From positions 1 through 29,309 of IMG/VR virus record IMGVR_UViG_3300010885_025481: a DNA stretch of 29,309 nucleotides, one strand, 5' to 3'. How positions within the stretch are numbered: position 1 is the stretch's first letter; every line of letters begins with the position of its first letter. Source of the stretch: a virus. Of the stretch, positions 3,041 to 10,116 are shown one piece after another. The notes below the pieces were generated by a model. It did no database searches. It saw only the letters and a list, made by a program, of their open reading frames with translations, and was not told where the DNA came from. The position numbers were made by a program, and so were the translations under genes.

Positions 3041-3735
3041 ATTGTACCTCTAATATCTTTATTAATCCCGTATTCCTGTAGTAATGGATTTAATTCGTCT
3101 GGATATTCTGATGTATTCCATTTACCTTTGACCAAAGCTGTTGCTATATACGGATAAACGTCCGAATCATAATGATTCTGTCCTCTTTTTGATTCGTTGT
3201 CATAATGATATAGTCCTTTTAAATTTAGCTCTATGCATTTTTGTACATAAGTTTCGTTCTCAAACCATTTCGAAGCCTTTACCTCTTTATATAGTTTTAT
3301 AAAATCTGATGTTCTCCATATAGTAGGTTGCATCGAAAATATGTTTTGATTATCAGACTCAATCTCATACAAAGTATTTGAAAGCTGAATCTTATTCAAA
3401 GCTCCAGACTTTATCAACCTGATAAATGAATATTCTGGATTTTCTTTTAAAAATTCTTTATACTCATTCAACTTATCTTCGTTTACCTTATTATACAAAA
3501 CAAAATCTTCTTGTAGATATATAAAAAATTCTGGGTTTATGTCTTCTAAAGTTTGAACCCATGTTTGCCAATAAGGTTGAGAATTTTTGTAAATATAAAT
3601 GTTTTTATATTTTTTATCATTATGGGGAACATCAGATAATAGATATAATCGGTATGAACAAAATTTTTTGTTTTGTTCATAAAACATATCCCATACATCA
3701 GACGTATTACTATTGGTATAACATACTTGTATCAT
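3037..3735 (-). CDS. Unrecognised protein, possible glycosyltransferase
   Basis: The protein is 232 aa from the ATG at 3733-3735, which overlaps the upstream stop as ATGA. A TTG 15 bases further upstream is open but lies inside the neighbouring gene, so it was rejected. Residues 72-78 read IYLQEDF, which could be the metal-binding acidic strand of a GT-A fold. Conserved-looking Trp and Tyr clusters (PYWQTWV, YDNESKRGQNHYDSD) follow. I cannot assign a named family. The context, flanked by GDPD-like and FkbM genes in a glycan operon, is the main argument for a sugar-transfer role. Confidence 0.42.
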   Translation of the reverse strand: MIQVCYTNSNTSDVWDMFYEQNKKFCSYRLYLLSDVPHNDKKYKNIYIYKNSQPYWQTWVQTLEDINPEFFIYLQEDFVLYNKVNEDKLNEYKEFLKENPEYSFIRLIKSGALNKIQLSNTLYEIESDNQNIFSMQPTIWRTSDFIKLYKEVKASKWFENETYVQKCIELNLKGLYHYDNESKRGQNHYDSDVYPYIATALVKGKWNTSEYPDELNPLLQEYGINKDIRGTI

Positions 3736-4151
3736 AAATAATCTACACAAACTCCGTAACAGTTGTAATTTTTACTTTTCCAATCTTTATCAAAATCTAC
3801 TATAATTGATCTATCAACAACATCTTTATTAGGATATGTCCATATATATCCAGATGATGTTAATGTACAATCATCTTCTTGATGCCAAAAACAATTTTTA
3901 ATGTTATATTTCAACATGTAATGCAATGCATCTAAATTCTTTGCGTGGCACCACAACCCATACTTTTGAAGGAATTCGTGATTAACAATATATGTTGGTT
4001 TGTCATGTCCCAAAATAATAAGTCCATCTTGAAACCAAACATCAATTTCTACTTCAATGTTTTTATCAAGCAATGAACTGATGTGATTTGGGTTATTTTC
4101 TAAATATTCGTTAGTACCACTAACATTTCCTCTATGAGATATTATCAACAT
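3732..4151 (-). CDS. Short glycerophosphodiester phosphodiesterase (GDPD)-like protein
   Basis: This protein is 139 aa. The N-terminus carries the GDPD hallmarks in order: His-Arg-Gly at residues 6-8, Glu35-x-Asp37 within the strand EVEIDV, and His49-Asp50 in LGHD. In GDPD enzymes these are the metal-binding and catalytic residues of a TIM barrel, used to split glycerophosphodiesters. Complete family members are around 240 aa, so this copy lacks roughly the C-terminal half of the barrel, yet the reading frame is intact and ends in an ATGA overlap with the next gene. It may be a compact phage version acting on a phosphodiester-linked glycan or lipid. Its first 20 nt overlap the upstream FkbM gene. 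Confidence 0.75.
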   Translation of the reverse strand: MLIISHRGNVSGTNEYLENNPNHISSLLDKNIEVEIDVWFQDGLIILGHDKPTYIVNHEFLQKYGLWCHAKNLDALHYMLKYNIKNCFWHQEDDCTLTSSGYIWTYPNKDVVDRSIIVDFDKDWKSKNYNCYGVCVDYL

Positions 4152-4779
4152 AATCTTTATTGACTGCTAATATGTCTCCTTCTCCATATGGATGGGGGCA
4201 TGGAATGAATTCAACTTTAAAATTATTTTGTGTTAAAAATTCTTCCAGATCTGTTTTTAATATATGACCCTCATAATAAGGAGAAACCGATGCTTCACAA
4301 TGGATGAATTTTACATTTTTTAGGAAATCCCCCATACCTTTCAAAGCCAAAAGCTCGACACCCTGCGTATCCATCCACAATACATCAACAGATTCTATAT
4401 TGTTTTCTATTAACCATTCATCTAATCTTACACAATCTACTGATATCTTTTTACAGTCTTGTGTACTGGCAAAAGGAACATCTATTGGTTTTAATAATGA
4501 TGAGGCACCGATATTTCCTAAAGTCAAATAAAAATCTAATTGTCCCTTTACGTCACCTACAGCAAATTGATACACATAAACATTTGGACATGTTTTTGAT
4601 TTTTTTTCACATATATCAAACTGACTTGGATTCGGCTCAAATGCATGTATGGTCGAAGTTGGAAAAGTTTTAGAGAATTCTATGCTTTGATCTAAATCCC
4701 TAGATCCAACATCCAATATTATTTTTGGATTTATTCCCCCATGAGAATTTATAAATGATATGAAGTTATCTATTAGCAT
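4132..4779 (-). CDS. FkbM-family methyltransferase
   Basis: At 215 aa, the sequence shows the FkbM layout: ILDVGSRDLDQSIEF as the SAM loop, TIHAFEPNPSQF as the second strand, VYQFAVGD, then VDVLWMDTQGVELLALKG, the conserved D-x-Q-G-x-E-x-x-x-L-K-G block, and FIHCEAS. It is the third and clearest FkbM-like enzyme of the operon and lies directly downstream of the RuBisCO-like gene, overlapping it by 7 nt. A coupled role with that gene is possible but unproven. Likely reaction: SAM-dependent O-methylation of a sugar. Confidence 0.88.
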   Translation of the reverse strand: MLIDNFISFINSHGGINPKIILDVGSRDLDQSIEFSKTFPTSTIHAFEPNPSQFDICEKKSKTCPNVYVYQFAVGDVKGQLDFYLTLGNIGASSLLKPIDVPFASTQDCKKISVDCVRLDEWLIENNIESVDVLWMDTQGVELLALKGMGDFLKNVKFIHCEASVSPYYEGHILKTDLEEFLTQNNFKVEFIPCPHPYGEGDILAVNKDYVDNIS

Positions 4780-5963
4780 TTAATTACACCCCATTTTTCT
4801 ATAGCTTGATGATATTCATCACCATACTCTTTATCTATGCTCTGTCTCATAGATTTTGCTCCAGCTAATGTTCCATTTGGATGTCCATGAATACCACCAC
4901 CAACATTAGCCATATAATCAACACCTAATCGGCTATTAACCATTTCTGTCAGCCCAGCATTGAATCCACAGCTTATAGCTGGCATTACATTTAATTCCGT
5001 AAGAATCTTACAAGAATCAATTACTTCCTGTTCGTCCCACTTATAATACCCTCCAATCATACCAGCATGTATGAAATCCACGCCACTTAATCCTGCAATC
5101 TTACAAATTACTCTCCAATCAATATGGAATGCATGGGATTTGTTTGTAAAAATTTTGTCTCCACTTTTTTGGAAGTGAATGAAAATCGGCAAGTCCAATT
5201 CTCTAATTGATCTGTACACACCTAACCCACACCAAAAATTAACATGAACAGAATTCCCCCCTAAAGAATGTACTAGTTTTACTCTTTCCAAAATCTTGTC
5301 TGGGTCACAATGAATTGATACCGAATAAATTACATTCTTATCTTTTAAATAATCCATTATCAAAGGGACACGTTCTTCAAGAGGACACAAGTCAAACTCA
5401 GACATAATTTCGTCCTCCTTAATAAAGTTGACACCACCATCAACTAATTCTTTCACCATTTCTAATAAAACTTGGGGTGTTACACCAATTTTAGGTTTAA
5501 CTATTGCTCCTAATACTGGTTTATCGTATGAATTTACAAACTTCCTAATTCCAGATATTCCATACTTTGGCCCTTTGAATTCAGATAAAATAGAATCAGG
5601 AAATTCTATGTCTAATACATGACATTGGTCAACTACATCAATATCCAGTTGCCCACCCATTAAATTTACTAGCAAATGAGATATTCCGTTGTTTTTAAAG
5701 TTGATGTTTACGGTTGGGAACGCAATATCGACAATACCTTCAACTCTAGATTCTAGATTTTTTTTATCATCCAAAATGATACAAGAATATTTTTCAAACA
5801 ATTCTTCGGTTTCCCATTTGTTTCGTACTTTAGGATTTCCTACAGACTGTCCAATCGCCAATGCCCATGCGGCATCATTTAAATTTGTTGTTGACTTTAT
5901 GTAGTACTTAACAATCAAATAATCATCTTTGTTTATATCTTCTAATTTTTTATAGATGTTCAT
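4773..5963 (-). CDS. RuBisCO-like protein (form IV-type large-subunit homologue)
   Basis: The 396-aa protein aligns by eye over the whole RuBisCO large-subunit fold. Present: Lys156-Pro-Lys158 in GAIVKPKIG (catalytic and binding lysines of loop 1), Lys182-Glu-Asp184-Glu185 in the GGVNFIKEDE segment (carbamylated Lys plus Mg ligands), His299 in FIHAGM (spinach His327), Ser331 in ISCG, and the phosphate-binding GGG at 355-357. Changed relative to true RuBisCO, by my manual alignment: Glu60 to Gly, Asn123 to Gly, His294 to Gln265, Arg295 to Lys266, and loop-6 Lys334 to Tyr. CO2 fixation is therefore very unlikely. Known RLPs catalyse enolisation, isomerisation or related chemistry on other sugar-phosphate-like substrates. 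A cupin gene lies upstream and an FkbM gene overlaps downstream. It has its own late-type promoter. The substrate is unknown. Confidence 0.93.
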   Translation of the reverse strand: MNIYKKLEDINKDDYLIVKYYIKSTTNLNDAAWALAIGQSVGNPKVRNKWETEELFEKYSCIILDDKKNLESRVEGIVDIAFPTVNINFKNNGISHLLVNLMGGQLDIDVVDQCHVLDIEFPDSILSEFKGPKYGISGIRKFVNSYDKPVLGAIVKPKIGVTPQVLLEMVKELVDGGVNFIKEDEIMSEFDLCPLEERVPLIMDYLKDKNVIYSVSIHCDPDKILERVKLVHSLGGNSVHVNFWCGLGVYRSIRELDLPIFIHFQKSGDKIFTNKSHAFHIDWRVICKIAGLSGVDFIHAGMIGGYYKWDEQEVIDSCKILTELNVMPAISCGFNAGLTEMVNSRLGVDYMANVGGGIHGHPNGTLAGAKSMRQSIDKEYGDEYHQAIEKWGVIKC

Positions 5964-5999: not shown

Positions 6000-6320
6000 T
6001 TAAATTAAAATTTTATCCCCAACAACACTAGGAGTTTTAACTACACACAAATAACAGTCTTCTAGGAAGACTGGATCAGCTATTTCATTTGGAAAAATCA
6101 CAAATACATCCCCAGAATTTAATTCTTGACCTTGTATAGTCATTTTTCCAGAGATTAAAAAATTAATTTCTGTTAATTTTTCGTGATAATGTGCTTCCCA
6201 AAATTCTCCTTTTTTATGAACTTTATACCCTACTTCAAAATCTTGGGTTTTGTAACAACTAGGTTCAAAATTTCCCACAAACCATCCACCCTTATAATCT
6301 TCGATTTTTGTTATTTTCAT
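6000..6320 (-). CDS. Small single-domain cupin protein
   Basis: This 106-aa protein is one cupin beta-barrel. Motif 1 is seen as EAHYHEKLTEINFLISG (metal-binding H-x-H and a later Glu near residues 44-52), followed by GQELNSGDVFVIFPNE as the hairpin and start of motif 2. The usual motif-2 His appears to be missing; the protein has DPVFLEDC there. Cupins in glycan clusters act as sugar epimerases, isomerases or ligand sensors. It is directly upstream of the RuBisCO-like gene, and its ATG overlaps the stop of the preceding glycosyltransferase-like gene as ATGA. A shared pathway with the RLP is a reasonable but untested inference. Confidence 0.78.
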   Translation of the reverse strand: MKITKIEDYKGGWFVGNFEPSCYKTQDFEVGYKVHKKGEFWEAHYHEKLTEINFLISGKMTIQGQELNSGDVFVIFPNEIADPVFLEDCYLCVVKTPSVVGDKILI

Positions 6321-7075
6321 AAAATAAACTTACACTTTTCTAATAAATTCTTTTTATATAAATGGTATTTATATATGTAATGATGATTTAAAATACATAA
6401 GATATTACCAATTACTAGATTAGTAGATCTTTCATTTATTGGTTTTAATATCTCATTACTAAATTCGTTATGTGTATTTGATATAGGCCAACCTTCAACA
6501 AAAAGTTTTTTAAAATAATCACTATCATCCATCAAGTATTCAAAAAGATCATCATATAATTCACAAATAAGTTTTATATTTTCATAAGAAGAATAAAACC
6601 AATGTTCAGTCATACCAGAATTTAATTGATTCCATGTCTTACAGTATACTAAATTTGTGTCAATATTTTCTTCAAAATTTAAAACACAAAGATGATCCTG
6701 TGGAGCATTATATATTCCGTGCCAATTGAATACATCAAACCTACAAATTATTACACAATCATATTTGTCTTGTATAAAATCAAAACATTGTTTTCTAGAA
6801 TAAGTGTAACTAAACAGTTTATATAATGATGTTCCTCCAGATTCTAGTTTTTCTGGATTAAACATTTTTATTTCTTCGCTGAAATCTTTTTGTACTTCAA
6901 ATTTATGATTTACTGGTTTATACTTTTTTAGTATATCATTTATTATTTCAGTATTAGTCTCCCATGCGTGTATGTACACATCCACATCATATTTTGATAA
7001 TATATGATCGTTTAATATCTCAAATGATCTAGAATAATCATTGGTCAGACCACATATACATAACGCAATTTTCAT
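6317..7075 (-). CDS. Putative glycosyltransferase of the KIALCIxG family
   Basis: The 252-aa protein begins KIALCICGLTNDYSRSFE, followed by YDVDVYIHAW. This beginning is characteristic of a family of uncharacterised glycosyltransferase-like proteins found in viral and bacterial surface-glycan clusters. Residues 106-115, DCVIICRFDV, hold the R-x-D acidic strand expected to bind metal and nucleotide sugar. No signal peptide or membrane segment is seen, so it should be cytosolic. The start codon directly follows the TAA of the nucleotidyltransferase gene (7076). The donor and acceptor sugars are unknown. Confidence 0.6.
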   Translation of the reverse strand: MKIALCICGLTNDYSRSFEILNDHILSKYDVDVYIHAWETNTEIINDILKKYKPVNHKFEVQKDFSEEIKMFNPEKLESGGTSLYKLFSYTYSRKQCFDFIQDKYDCVIICRFDVFNWHGIYNAPQDHLCVLNFEENIDTNLVYCKTWNQLNSGMTEHWFYSSYENIKLICELYDDLFEYLMDDSDYFKKLFVEGWPISNTHNEFSNEILKPINERSTNLVIGNILCILNHHYIYKYHLYKKNLLEKCKFIL

Positions 7076-7798
7076 TTATAACAAAATGTATTTATTTAAA
7101 TCTTCGGGGGTTCCTATAGGGAAATGCAAATTAAAATAATAGGGATGAATTTTTTTATTATTTTTAATCAAATAATTATAAGTAGGTGCTACATAAAATT
7201 CATTATTATATCTTTCATTATTTTCTATCATAATTTTTGCAGAATCTACGAAAAGTGATCCGTGTTTCCAAAAGTGGAACCCATTAGTAGCTATGTTGCT
7301 TATAACAACTTTTTCTTTAACATCGACTATTTCAAAGTTATCATTTAGTTTGACATAACTATTTTTATTTGAAACTGAATTAAACACACCTAAAATTCCA
7401 TCACTATTATTGCGATTGGAATATTTTATGATCGTATTTATATTTAAATCTTCTGTTATTTGATCACAGTTTGTTATTACCAAAGGAGTTTCATTATCAA
7501 TTAAGTGCTGAGATAACAAGCAAGTACAAGCAGATCCTTCTGTTAGATAATCTATTGATATAATTTCAAAATTTACATTCAATCTTTTGCATATGCTTTG
7601 TAAATTATGAATTGGTAATTCCTTTCTAGTTATAAAAATAAACCTAGTATTTTTGAGTTGATTATTATTCTCTATAACACGTTCTATCATTGGCTTCCCA
7701 TTTACATCTATAAATGGTTTAAATTCATTTGGATGTGTTTTTTGGAACCTTGATCCTAAACCAGCCATAGGTATCAATATGTTTAAATTTTCATTCAT
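7076..7798 (-). CDS. Sugar nucleotidyltransferase (NDP-sugar pyrophosphorylase-like)
   Basis: The 240-aa protein starts ILIPMAGLGSRFQK, the nucleotide-binding G-x-G-x-R loop (residues 13-17), followed by FKPFIDVNGKPMIERVIE with Lys27-Pro28, the signature of the sugar nucleotidyltransferase fold. LVITNCDQI later supplies the Asp that binds metal in this family. Such enzymes form NDP-sugars from NTP and sugar-1-phosphate. At this length it has only the catalytic domain, without the C-terminal beta-helix. The ATG overlaps the stop of the WavE-like gene as ATGA. It probably activates the sugar that the cluster's transferases use. The nucleotide and sugar cannot be read from the sequence. Confidence 0.87.
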   Translation of the reverse strand: MNENLNILIPMAGLGSRFQKTHPNEFKPFIDVNGKPMIERVIENNNQLKNTRFIFITRKELPIHNLQSICKRLNVNFEIISIDYLTEGSACTCLLSQHLIDNETPLVITNCDQITEDLNINTIIKYSNRNNSDGILGVFNSVSNKNSYVKLNDNFEIVDVKEKVVISNIATNGFHFWKHGSLFVDSAKIMIENNERYNNEFYVAPTYNYLIKNNKKIHPYYFNLHFPIGTPEDLNKYILL

Positions 7799-8394
7799 AA
7801 TTTATAGCAATCGTGTTTTTTATATTCGCTTATTCTTGTGTTGTATTTTATCCAATGTAGATCATTGTTGTCGTTTAAATCATTTAATATAAAATTAACA
7901 GGAACACCATCTAAGTAATTATAAAATCTTCTAGTTAAAATTTGTTCCACAAAATCAGTAGTTCTTACATCATCAATTTCCCATAATTTTATTAGATCTT
8001 CCGTTTTGGCAGACATAAAATAATCAATAAAATATTTTCCTGATTGTGGGCTACCCACATGTTGTCCTATAAAATTAAATTTATGAAAATCTATTATCTT
8101 CATAAATTCATTAAAATTAGTAGGAATCAAGTCGTTTCTTAATTTTAAAATATATTCGTATCCCTTTTCTTTGCAAAGATATAATCCATTTAAGCTACAT
8201 ACTTTTTGATAGTAAAAAAGATGAGGACCAGCTTCTATTGGAGGTTCATTAAACAAAACAATATCATTACTGTGGTATTTCTGCTCATCACCTTTCCATG
8301 TAGAAAAAATTAAATTAAACCCAGAAAATGCTTTTTTAATTTCTGGAATATTTGTGCTTTTTCCTGTAATTAAAATTACAAAATTAAAATTCAC
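7795..8394 (-). CDS. WavE-like putative glycosyltransferase
   Basis: The open frame extends upstream to 8496, but that part lies within the preceding gene and gives no family-like sequence. From the GTG at 8392-8394, overlapping the upstream stop by 11 nt, the protein begins FNFVILITGKS, a plausible first strand, giving 199 aa. The segment YEYILKLRNDLIP has the K-x-R-x-D strand typical of WavE-type lipopolysaccharide synthesis proteins, and GPHLFYYQKVCSLNGL matches the helix that precedes it. No clear ribosome binding site is present, so the exact start is uncertain. Its function as a GT-A-like sugar transferase is inferred from the motif and context. Confidence 0.6.
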   Translation of the reverse strand: MNFNFVILITGKSTNIPEIKKAFSGFNLIFSTWKGDEQKYHSNDIVLFNEPPIEAGPHLFYYQKVCSLNGLYLCKEKGYEYILKLRNDLIPTNFNEFMKIIDFHKFNFIGQHVGSPQSGKYFIDYFMSAKTEDLIKLWEIDDVRTTDFVEQILTRRFYNYLDGVPVNFILNDLNDNNDLHWIKYNTRISEYKKHDCYKL

Positions 8395-9121
8395 AATTTT
8401 TATTATAATATAGTTGATTTTCGAACATGTAAGACCTAGTCTTACTTCCTTTGGTATACTCATCCAAAGCAGATCCAATATCAATGTATCTTCCAACTTT
8501 TTGAGTATCTAATCCTGATAAGAAATCGATAATAACTTCACTCATCGGACCAGCAGATATCAAATATAATTCAGGTCTTAATGCAATTTTAGACAATTCA
8601 TTCAAGAATTCATTCTTTTTGTCTTCCCAAAAATTTACACAATCATCATTAACAGGTATAAAATCTAAAACATCAAATGGATATTTTCTATTAGATCCTT
8701 CTTTGTTTGCTATCAAAATAACCTTTTCATCTATATTTTGAATTACATTTTTAAATTTTTTGTAATTTCCGTTAATCCATAAATTCGAATATGTTATGTT
8801 TTCCATATCAACTCCAGCAATTTTTAAATTATCTAGAATGATTTTTTTCCCATAAGGATCACAACATCCACAAGAAATTCCATAAAATTTATCTGGGCTT
8901 TTGTTTTTTAAACTATTTGCGAGATCTTTTCCTAATTTAGTTTTGTGTGATGGAGCATTCCACTTGTCCTTTTGGAACGCTTGTGTGTGGTTTCCCACTT
9001 CTTTACCCATCATTAAGGCCAATTCACCATCGGCGTATCTAGAAAATATCGTGTGTTGTTTTTTTACGAAAATTCTATCAATCAAGTATTCGAAATCTTT
9101 ACTAAAATCTTGTGTCATCAT
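8384..9121 (-). CDS. GT-D-fold glycosyltransferase (DUF1792-like)
   Basis: The 245-aa protein has TIFSRYADGELALM at residues 24-37, the R-[YF]-x-D-G-E motif of the GT-D glycosyltransferase fold (DUF1792), where the Asp and Glu bind metal and nucleotide sugar. LYLISAGPMSEVIIDFL and GRYIDIGSALDEY near the C-terminus are also typical of the family. Two ATGs in tandem (9121 and 9118) overlap the stop of the wecB-like gene, so the start is uncertain by one codon. In characterised relatives the enzyme extends a protein-linked glycan. Here the acceptor is unknown. Confidence 0.75.
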   Translation of the reverse strand: MMTQDFSKDFEYLIDRIFVKKQHTIFSRYADGELALMMGKEVGNHTQAFQKDKWNAPSHKTKLGKDLANSLKNKSPDKFYGISCGCCDPYGKKIILDNLKIAGVDMENITYSNLWINGNYKKFKNVIQNIDEKVILIANKEGSNRKYPFDVLDFIPVNDDCVNFWEDKKNEFLNELSKIALRPELYLISAGPMSEVIIDFLSGLDTQKVGRYIDIGSALDEYTKGSKTRSYMFENQLYYNKNCEF

Positions 9122-10116
9122 ATATTCTTTAATAGTTTTGCTATCTTTTTTGCTGAATTTCCGTCACCAAAAGGGCATGGATAACTTATTTGATAATCTT
9201 TACTTATTTTTGAAACCAAAGAACTCAAATTTTTTGGAGACATACAAAGGATTCCATGATAATGGAGACATTCTGCTCTTTCTGTGGTTTCTCTACAGAT
9301 GATAATTTTCTTATTTAAGAAAGATGCTTCTTCTTGAATGCCACCACTATCAGTAATAACAAATCTACAATCTTTTAAAATATCAATCAAATCCGAATGA
9401 TTCAAAGAATCAACAACTTTTACATGCTTGAAAATGTTTTTGTGTTTAATCACATTTGGATTTGGATGTATGGGAAGTATAAATTCCAAATCATTATATT
9501 GTTCTGCTAATTTATCTATTTCTGTAAACCATTCCTCTATAATGTCGTGGTTTTCTCTCCTGTGAAGAGTTACCAAAACTTTGTTTCCATACGAAGGAAC
9601 TACATGAGTAATATTATCTAGTACAGTATTACCAACTACATATACATGATTATAGTTTGTTATTTTTTCTGCCTCCAGACAAGCCGCATTATCATTAGTT
9701 GCACACAAATGAATGTCGGCAATTCTACTAATTAATTGCCGATTTGCTTCTTCTGGATATGGATGATTTAGATCATATGTTCTCAACCCAGCTTCCAAAT
9801 GAATGATCTTTATTTTGTTATTAAAAGCCCACAATGCCACCGCAAAAGCTGAAGATGTATCTCCTTGGACTAATACATGAGTGAAGCATTCTATGGGTAT
9901 AGAACAAGTTAATACATTTGCAATAACAGAATTTAATCTATTATCACTTAATTGCTTTTGTTCTATACTGTAATCGACCTTTATATCTTTTAGAAGATCC
10001 GTATGTTGTCCAGTAAAGAATAAAGAATACTCAATATTATTACTATTAAATTCTTGGAGCAATGGCTTTATCTTCAGCCATTCTGGTCTTGTTCCAAATG
10101 ATACTAATACATTCAT
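9118..10116 (-). CDS. wecB: UDP-N-acetylglucosamine 2-epimerase, non-hydrolysing (WecB-like)
   Basis: This enzyme interconverts UDP-GlcNAc and UDP-ManNAc. The 332-aa GT-B-like protein shows all family blocks: GTRPE at residues 8-12, FTGQH at 34-38, QGDTSS at 84-89 (Asp86), HLEAGLRT at 106-113 (Glu108), PEEANR at 121-126 (acidic catalytic pair), TLHRREN at 183-189 (His185), and DSGGIQEE near 257-264. It is shorter than typical bacterial WecB (about 370-380 aa) but nothing essential appears missing. It overlaps the downstream GT-D gene by ATGATGA and follows a GT2 gene. It suggests that ManNAc or a ManNAc derivative is one of the sugars in the product of this cluster. Confidence 0.93.
   Translation of the reverse strand: MNVLVSFGTRPEWLKIKPLLQEFNSNNIEYSLFFTGQHTDLLKDIKVDYSIEQKQLSDNRLNSVIANVLTCSIPIECFTHVLVQGDTSSAFAVALWAFNNKIKIIHLEAGLRTYDLNHPYPEEANRQLISRIADIHLCATNDNAACLEAEKITNYNHVYVVGNTVLDNITHVVPSYGNKVLVTLHRRENHDIIEEWFTEIDKLAEQYNDLEFILPIHPNPNVIKHKNIFKHVKVVDSLNHSDLIDILKDCRFVITDSGGIQEEASFLNKKIIICRETTERAECLHYHGILCMSPKNLSSLVSKISKDYQISYPCPFGDGNSAKKIAKLLKNI

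Follow-up and report, generated by a model that had tools for sequence, protein, structure and literature searches.

The RuBisCO-like gene and its carrier

The window analysed here, a virus record of 29,309 bases (IMGVR_UViG_3300010885_025481, taken at its full length), encodes on its minus strand a RuBisCO-like protein (RLP; P0001, 396 amino acids, positions 4773..5963), which is the first member of the clade delimited below. The plus-strand reading of the same interval was ruled out, as it is riddled with stop codons. An initial annotation, made from the sequence alone, had regarded the gene as a full-length homologue of the RuBisCO large subunit, carried by a T4-type phage inside a glycan operon. 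The homology is borne out by the match to PF00016 (2.8e-36; PF02788 4.4e-4), by an AlphaFold2 (AF2) model with a mean pLDDT of 91.3 and a pTM of 0.90, and by the RuBisCO/MtnW fold of that model. In superpositions with VIA-align, the top solved fold was MtnW with 2,3-diketohexane 1-phosphate (2oem; Z 44.1, root-mean-square deviation 2.1, 366 residues, 29% identity), and form III RuBisCO (2cwx, Z 43.8) tied with it. The Foldseek top match was a form III RuBisCO (TMq 0.88), and form III RuBisCO and MtnW were also the top sequence matches in the PDB. None of the curated NCBIfam cut-offs was reached: the protein scored 189 of 497 bits with the form III model, 130.3 of 513.6 (TIGR03332) and 156.9 of 409 (NF007095) with the MtnW models, and 142.1 of 700 bits with the OiaX model. 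A fold search of BFVD gave no RuBisCO-fold viral protein among the matches listed (best TMq 0.41).

The assignment of the carrier to the T4-type phages was confirmed by genes in the window for a UvsX-like recombinase, a DNA polymerase, SbcC/SbcD-like subunits (which we take to be gp46/47), a late sigma factor and PhoH. An identical RLP is encoded on another contig of 86,971 bases (L001), and the T4 capsid protein Gp23 (PF07068) was found on 17 of 30 large RLP contigs, the other 13 possibly being fragments or other phages.

Distribution among viruses and cells

A one-off transfer without conserved neighbours was looked for as the contrary outcome and did not appear: 124 distinct viral homologues could be pooled from scans of viral contigs with the RLP, the cupin and the GDPD-like protein. 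The scan with the window RLP matched 176 stretches, 175 of which encode relatives (best 80 kept); 66 of 68 matches were relatives when a divergent viral member was used, and 229 of 232 when a SAR11 homologue was used (best 80 kept). When 50,697 named phage records were searched with the protein, nothing matched at E 1e-5. A form I RuBisCO scan of the viral contigs also gave no match, although its peptide patterns were narrow, so that a lack of form I in viruses does not follow from it.

A pattern-based scan of a species-genome collection gave 249 matching stretches; relatives are encoded by 24 of them, and 23 cellular members were counted (L082-L104). The carriers are SAR11 and other alphaproteobacteria, Patescibacteria, Pacearchaeota, Nanoarchaeia, Woesearchaeota, Verrucomicrobia, Elusimicrobia, Bacteroidota, Azospirillum oleiclasticum and three Legionella species, while a Desulfosporosinus relative is a distant RLP (26%; 148 bits against the family profile, with members at 286 or above). 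Of 247 genomes drawn from the family to which one SAR11 genome belongs, 2 carry the gene, which is rare there. It should be noted that several cellular loci stand on short contigs from bins or single cells and could be viral or foreign (for example L082, L085, L086, L087, L090 and L104); firmer are L084 (a 232 kb contig), L088 (beside LepA and PheT), L096, L097, L103 and the Azospirillum and Legionella isolates.

Active-site residues

Residues were read from a MAFFT alignment to 20 references, namely form I, II and III RuBisCOs, MtnW and OiaX, or relatives, labelled by NCBIfam; the numbering is that of spinach, anchored on motifs. The initial annotation, based on manual alignment, was right on all five of its substitutions (E60 to G38, N123 to G104, H294 to Q265, R295 to K266 and K334 to Y306) as well as on the retention of the metal site (K201/D203/E204, here K182/D184/E185) and of both loop-1 lysines (K175/K177, here K156/K158). 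Two further losses, T65 to N and W66 to P, were absent from its list and are also invariant in the clade.

The 124 viral homologues share the changes E60G, T65N, W66P, N123G, H294Q, K334Y and G380C without variation (120-123 of 124 readable), the exception to the signature being R295, which is K or S. All of them keep K175, K177, K201, D203, E204, S379, G381 and the P1 glycines 403/404 (121-122 of 124 readable), which in the window protein are K156, K158, K182, D184, E185, S331, G333, G355 and G356; the third glycine, G357, is variable. The cellular members have the same replacements of E60, N123, H294 and K334 (G/G/Q/Y in 22-23 of 23, the remainder being a gap). They also match the viral proteins at the other positions named, apart from G404, which is Gly in 20 of 22, and from R295, where 22 have K and one has R. 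The protein thus corresponds to the description of form IV, in that the RuBisCO fold and the metal/carbamate site are present and the carboxylation residues are lost, and we infer from the sequence that the window gene probably encodes a catalytically competent RuBisCO-fold enzyme of form IV type, predicted to be non-carboxylating.

The loss of several catalytic positions, together with the fact that no substrate has been assigned, could be taken to mean that the protein retains its fold for something other than catalysis, as a scaffold or regulator of the gene cassette described below. We consider this very unlikely, because the metal triad, the loop-1 lysines and S379 are uniform across the readable viral and cellular members, which argues against a dead enzyme.

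The pair of residues at the P2 phosphate site, R295/H327, is K/H in 80, S/Q in 34 and K/Q in nine of the 124 viral proteins, with a gap in one. Since this pair varies, the clade as a whole can probably do without a second phosphate, and the residue pattern suggests that what all members require is one phosphate, bound in the P1 site.

Phylogeny

The viral RLPs and some proteins of SAR11, archaea, Elusimicrobia, Azospirillum and Legionella formed one clade with a support of 100/100 (bootstrap/SH-aLRT) and a long stem of 1.09 changes per column. These values are from a careful tree of 64 rows, from which 14 of 78 rows were omitted as long-branched, partial or near-duplicate; a quick tree comprised all 78. 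A clade of its own, apart from forms I-III, was thus recovered, and the contrary outcome, a position inside form II or III, did not appear: joining the clade to form III was rejected by the approximately unbiased (AU) test (p-AU 0.00017), which covered form III, and forms I and II were separate supported clades apart from it. The branch that makes MtnW the sister of the RLP clade was weak (73/7), and a grouping of OiaX with the clade was not rejected (p-AU 0.41). A single clade of all viral rows was rejected (p-AU 0.014), with some SAR11 and other cellular genes standing among the viral ones; therefore, transfer between phages and cells has probably occurred, or some of the short contigs belong to viruses. 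The copies that lay outside the viral part of the quick tree were those of Elusimicrobia, Azospirillum, Legionella, Verrucomicrobia and nanoarchaea and some of SAR11. The clade is filed as a variant of form IV and not under MtnW, OiaX or form IV-GOS, the last having been compared by description.

Viral rbcL genes have been listed as auxiliary metabolic genes of carbon fixation, as the available parts of two reports show: in landfill viruses, where they cluster with RbcL-like proteins and also occur in sampled IMG/VR viruses (PMC12607003), and in viruses of the Elbe estuary, where transcripts were found as well (PMC13390420). By analogy, the window gene might be a true RuBisCO that raises CO2 fixation in infected cells. 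However, E60, N123, H294 and K334 are gone in every readable member and the grouping with form III was rejected, which makes this explanation extremely improbable. In addition, two of the cellular carriers, SAR11 and Legionella, are not known to be autotrophs.

A further possibility is that an enzyme of methionine salvage or of the apionate type (MtnW, 5-methylthioribulose-1-phosphate (MTRu-1-P) isomerase or OiaX) lies in the glycan operon by chance and feeds host metabolism. The fold and the metal site resemble those of MtnW, and MtnW or OiaX is nearest in the tree, without support. Nevertheless, this explanation is quite unlikely in view of the scores far under the MtnW and OiaX cut-offs, the length of the stem, the constant presence of a nucleotidyltransferase as partner, and the retention of K177, in place of which the references have C/A (MtnW) or A/S (OiaX and OiaX-like).

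Conserved gene neighbourhood

Viral neighbourhoods were counted in the 98 of the 124 loci in which the RLP gene is flanked by five or more genes in both directions. A nucleotidyltransferase gene was present within three genes of the RLP in 92 and within five in 96 of them (the misses being L137 and L070), a cupin gene within five genes in 79, and a gene for a mini GDPD-like protein within five genes in 76 (63 of 80 in an earlier locus set). Blind clustering of the ten nearest genes ranked the same three families first (nucleotidyltransferase 93, cupin 79 and GDPD-like 74 of 98) and thus serves as an internal control; the next families reached 44, 35, 21 and 12. Among the cellular loci, the nucleotidyltransferase was near the RLP in 21 of 23, the two misses being contigs of 3.1 and 3.7 kb. 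All four genes of the module were found in L082, L083, L087, L097 and L099, and in Azospirillum (L099) and Elusimicrobia (L097) they are contiguous in the order GDPD-like, RLP, cupin, nucleotidyltransferase. A cupin-first scan found only the contig of its query, the patterns having been too narrow.

The conserved glycan context that had been proposed is therefore real as regards its core partner, the nucleotidyltransferase. Of the neighbouring transferases in general, this one is conserved, whereas the others differ from phage to phage, and the FkbM methyltransferases did not prove to be part of the conserved context: the FkbM cluster of the window was present in 12 of the 98 loci (8 of 80 in the earlier set), and the family was rejected as a member of the module. 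Other methyltransferase-like families, recognized by eye and left unpooled, occur around the RLP, and one such family was present in 44 of the 98 loci; the cluster of the window's glycosyltransferase-like protein of 252 amino acids was found in 35 of 98.

All genes of the window operon described here are on the minus strand. The nucleotidyltransferase (240 amino acids, 7076..7798) matches PF00483 (1.8e-8) and, in the PDB, 4evw (4.7e-11). The cupin-like protein (106 amino acids, 6000..6320) matches phrog_24762 (1.8e-33), gave no Pfam match and has weak similarity to PDB cupins (best E 0.022). The mini GDPD-like protein (139 amino acids, 3732..4151; AF2 pLDDT 97.1) retains the HR, E.D and H motifs of glycerophosphodiesterases; the residues concerned, H6, R7, E35, D37 and H49, are invariant in 22 of 22 aligned proteins (alignment A2), while structural matches of the model to GDPD are weak and no Pfam match was obtained for the proteins scanned (window, L084 and L088). 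At 140-150 amino acids (window 3732-4151; L099 3942-4403; L088 8770-9228), these proteins are very short and have a confidently predicted fold, and the same nucleotidyltransferase family is their partner whether or not the phage has an RLP.

The glycan setting of the window was recognized correctly, with the nucleotidyltransferase near, an FkbM-type methyltransferase (4132..4779; PF05050 3.5e-19) adjoining the RLP gene with an overlap of 7 bases, and a non-hydrolysing UDP-GlcNAc 2-epimerase of the WecB type (9118..10116) that scores above its cut-off (TIGR00236, 224.9 bits against 210.15). Between the genes for the nucleotidyltransferase and the cupin lies one for a protein judged glycosyltransferase-like by eye (252 amino acids, 6317..7075; phrog_13607, function not assigned), and a WavE-like glycan gene (7795..8496) matches PF07507 with an E of 2.2e-4, under the Pfam cut-off. 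As called, the open reading frames at 7795-8496 and 8384-9121 overlap by 113 bases, and therefore the WavE-like gene, with its TTG start, probably begins further in.

Several cellular loci have additional features. In Azospirillum oleiclasticum, the cassette is followed by genes that look CysD/CysN-like by eye (L099 6771-9568; sulfate activation), so that this species perhaps makes a sulfated glycan. The three Legionella species (L100-L102) carry the RLP and the nucleotidyltransferase, and about 0.5 kb upstream of the RLP gene of Legionella nautarum (L100) the opposite strand has a gene of the LicD family. A nanoarchaeal bin (L096 9971-13903) has the RLP, a nucleotidyltransferase, a full-length GDPD (PF03009 1.2e-21) and a second nucleotidyltransferase in one cluster. 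Two different nucleotidyltransferases flank the RLP in six SAR11 loci (L088, L089, L091, L092, L094 and L095); the upstream one of L088 gave no Pfam match.

Alternation with a HAD protein

A reverse scan, starting from the nucleotidyltransferase (alignment A3), matched at least 600 stretches, at least 594 of them encoding relatives, and the best 80 by similarity to the window protein were kept. In 63 of these 80 loci a HAD protein is fused to the nucleotidyltransferase or encoded within three genes of it, an RLP is encoded within three genes in 16, both in none and neither in one. Counted by distinct protein, the numbers are 59 with HAD, 14 with RLP, none with both and one with neither (n = 74; Fisher p 3e-14, a value that ignores relatedness). 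Counted from the RLP, 117 loci have a nucleotidyltransferase, and in 110 of these no HAD stands beside it. Fusions of HAD and nucleotidyltransferase are common in phages (53 of the 80 loci, for example L014 6774-8138; L313-L377).

The HAD is beta-phosphoglucomutase-like, with TIGR02009 as the best NCBIfam model, under its cut-off in all six proteins scanned; for the one HAD searched in the PDB, a sugar phosphatase came first, followed by beta-phosphoglucomutases. It could thus be either a mutase or a phosphatase. The alternation of HAD and RLP is phylogenetically clustered, with six changes of the RLP label on a quick nucleotidyltransferase tree of 132 rows.

MtnC is itself a HAD protein. In methionine salvage, according to the available text of PMC6302742, MtnW and the phosphatase MtnX together do what the bifunctional enolase/phosphatase MtnC does elsewhere. 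Because of this parallel, the swap of HAD and RLP may be more than a coincidence.

The alternation also bears on the order in which the two enzymes would act. The region of E60, T65 and W66 helps to bind ribulose 1,5-bisphosphate in RuBisCO. In the clade, an N-terminal motif, IGQSxGNPxxR (G38, Q39, S40, G42, N43, P44 and R47), stands in place of this region and is at least 98.5% conserved in viral and cellular members. This motif might bind a nucleotide, in which case the RLP would act after the nucleotidyltransferase, its substrate being a nucleotide-activated keto sugar or a glycan precursor. Such an order would have a counterpart in Campylobacter, in which CDP-6-fructose is reduced after activation (PMC10918830, as far as its available text goes). 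On the other hand, the P1 glycines and the loop-1 lysines are kept in the viral members, which fits a phosphate monoester. Moreover, the RLP alternates with a beta-phosphoglucomutase-like HAD, and proteins of this kind usually act before a nucleotidyltransferase. An action after activation is therefore unlikely.

Proposed function

Our preferred reading, to which we give a probability of roughly 60%, is that the RLP is a metal-dependent enolase or isomerase, non-carboxylating, that supplies the nucleotidyltransferase with a phosphorylated sugar or polyol. Mg2+ bound at the K201-type lysine, possibly carbamylated, together with K175/K177 would lead to abstraction of a proton beside the carbonyl of a keto-sugar phosphate, the latter being held by the P1-site glycines. 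Reprotonation of the enediolate at another position would make the enzyme an isomerase, an epimerase or an enolase. The phosphorylated product would then pass, perhaps via the cupin, to the adjacent nucleotidyltransferase and yield a nucleotide-activated sugar or polyol, which the transferases of the phage would load onto the surface glycan of the infected cell or onto the virion. The RLP would thus occupy the place that a beta-phosphoglucomutase-like HAD has in related cassettes. A capsule nucleotidyltransferase forms CDP-6-fructose from fructose-6-phosphate (PMC10918830, in its available text), and this precedent, together with that of MtnW and MtnX, makes the proposed mechanism plausible by analogy.

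Several observations weigh against this proposal. That the RLP precedes the nucleotidyltransferase in the pathway cannot be proved from gene order, and this partner reaches no NCBIfam equivalog cut-off. In the reverse scan, 64 of the 80 loci contain its family without an RLP, and the cupin is also found in HAD cassettes without an RLP (7 of 59 distinct), while no cupin was found in the Legionella loci, the nanoarchaeal loci or 9 of 10 Pelagibacter loci. HAD and RLP co-occur in 7 of the 117 RLP loci with a nucleotidyltransferase, and strict mutual exclusion was consequently rejected. The alternation comprises three independent contrasts on supported branches, too few to give a test of independence any power. 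With respect to the active site, of the 22 cellular members readable at G404 of the P1 site only 20 have Gly there, and H294 is Gln in the clade and His in MtnW, OiaX and the other RLP references, so that the chemistry may differ.

A wider version of the proposal is possible rather than probable. It would hold that a RuBisCO fold has become dedicated to sugar-nucleotide biosynthesis together with the cupin and the nucleotidyltransferase, that the product is an undescribed keto, branched or polyol sugar, that T4-type phages, SAR11, Azospirillum, Elusimicrobia and nanoarchaea have in common a mobile cassette in which the RLP replaces the HAD, and that virome rbcL is largely the same enzyme.

In short, the phage RLP usually lies beside a sugar-activating gene in many T4-type phages and probably helps to build an unusual surface sugar. 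This would be important in several respects. According to the available parts of two reviews, RLPs function in methionine salvage, the Rhodospirillum rubrum MTRu-1-P route and apiose/apionate breakdown (PMC6302742), and in the breakdown of hamamelose (PMC10173188). The RLPs of known function named are thus salvage or catabolic enzymes, and glycan biosynthesis, if true, would give the RuBisCO fold a new role. Literature searches, with bioRxiv and most subscription journals outside their scope, gave no paper placing an RLP in a glycan cassette among the matches listed, in the portions available. The conserved cassette makes the reaction directly testable and could lead to the surface-sugar chemistry of these phages and, via the SAR11 copies, to the identity of some of their hosts. 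The result also bears on virome counts of rbcL as carbon fixation, given 124 viral homologues that are devoid of the residues needed wherever these are readable; published virome 'rbcL' genes may belong to the RLP clade, and genuine viral RuBisCOs may exist alongside it.

Comparison with known systems

MtnW, the 2,3-diketo-5-methylthiopentyl-1-phosphate enolase (form IV-YkrW), resembles the clade in its fold, in the retention of K175, K201, D203 and E204 and in the loss of R295, and it is the nearest branch in the tree, without support. Unlike MtnW, the clade has H294Q, W66P, a retained K177, nucleotidyltransferase and cupin partners, and low scores with the MtnW models. OiaX, the 3-oxo-isoapionate-4-phosphate decarboxylase, is likewise an RLP of carbohydrate metabolism, and in two OiaX references N123 is Gly and H327 is Gln, as in part of the viral clade. 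However, the window protein attains only about a fifth of the OiaX cut-off (142 of 700 bits), and the OiaX operon examined (9 kb) contains an acid-sugar kinase and isomerases and no nucleotidyltransferase, unlike the RLP cassette.

Global Ocean Sampling (GOS) data contained 65 RuBisCO homologues outside the known forms, with N123, K177, D198, F199, H327 and G404 as poorly conserved sites (PMC1821046, available part), and the name form IV-GOS is used in a review (PMC10173188, available part). Form IV-GOS (Tabita et al. 2007) could be compared with the clade by description only. A large share of the GOS homologues is unlikely to belong to the RLP clade, because E60, H294 and K334 are not in the list of poorly conserved sites, as far as the available part of that source goes.

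The CDP-6-D-glucitol pathway of Campylobacter jejuni HS:5 is similar in that a nucleotidyltransferase activates a ketose phosphate for the capsule, and different in that, as described in the available text, it consists of two enzymes, including a reductase, with a cytidylyltransferase of the PF01128 type and no RLP (PMC10918830). The HAD-nucleotidyltransferase cassettes of phages have the same nucleotidyltransferase family, often the mini GDPD-like protein and sometimes the cupin, and they differ from the RLP cassette in the beta-phosphoglucomutase-like HAD, fused or within three genes, that is found in 63 of 80 loci versus 16 of 80 with the RLP.

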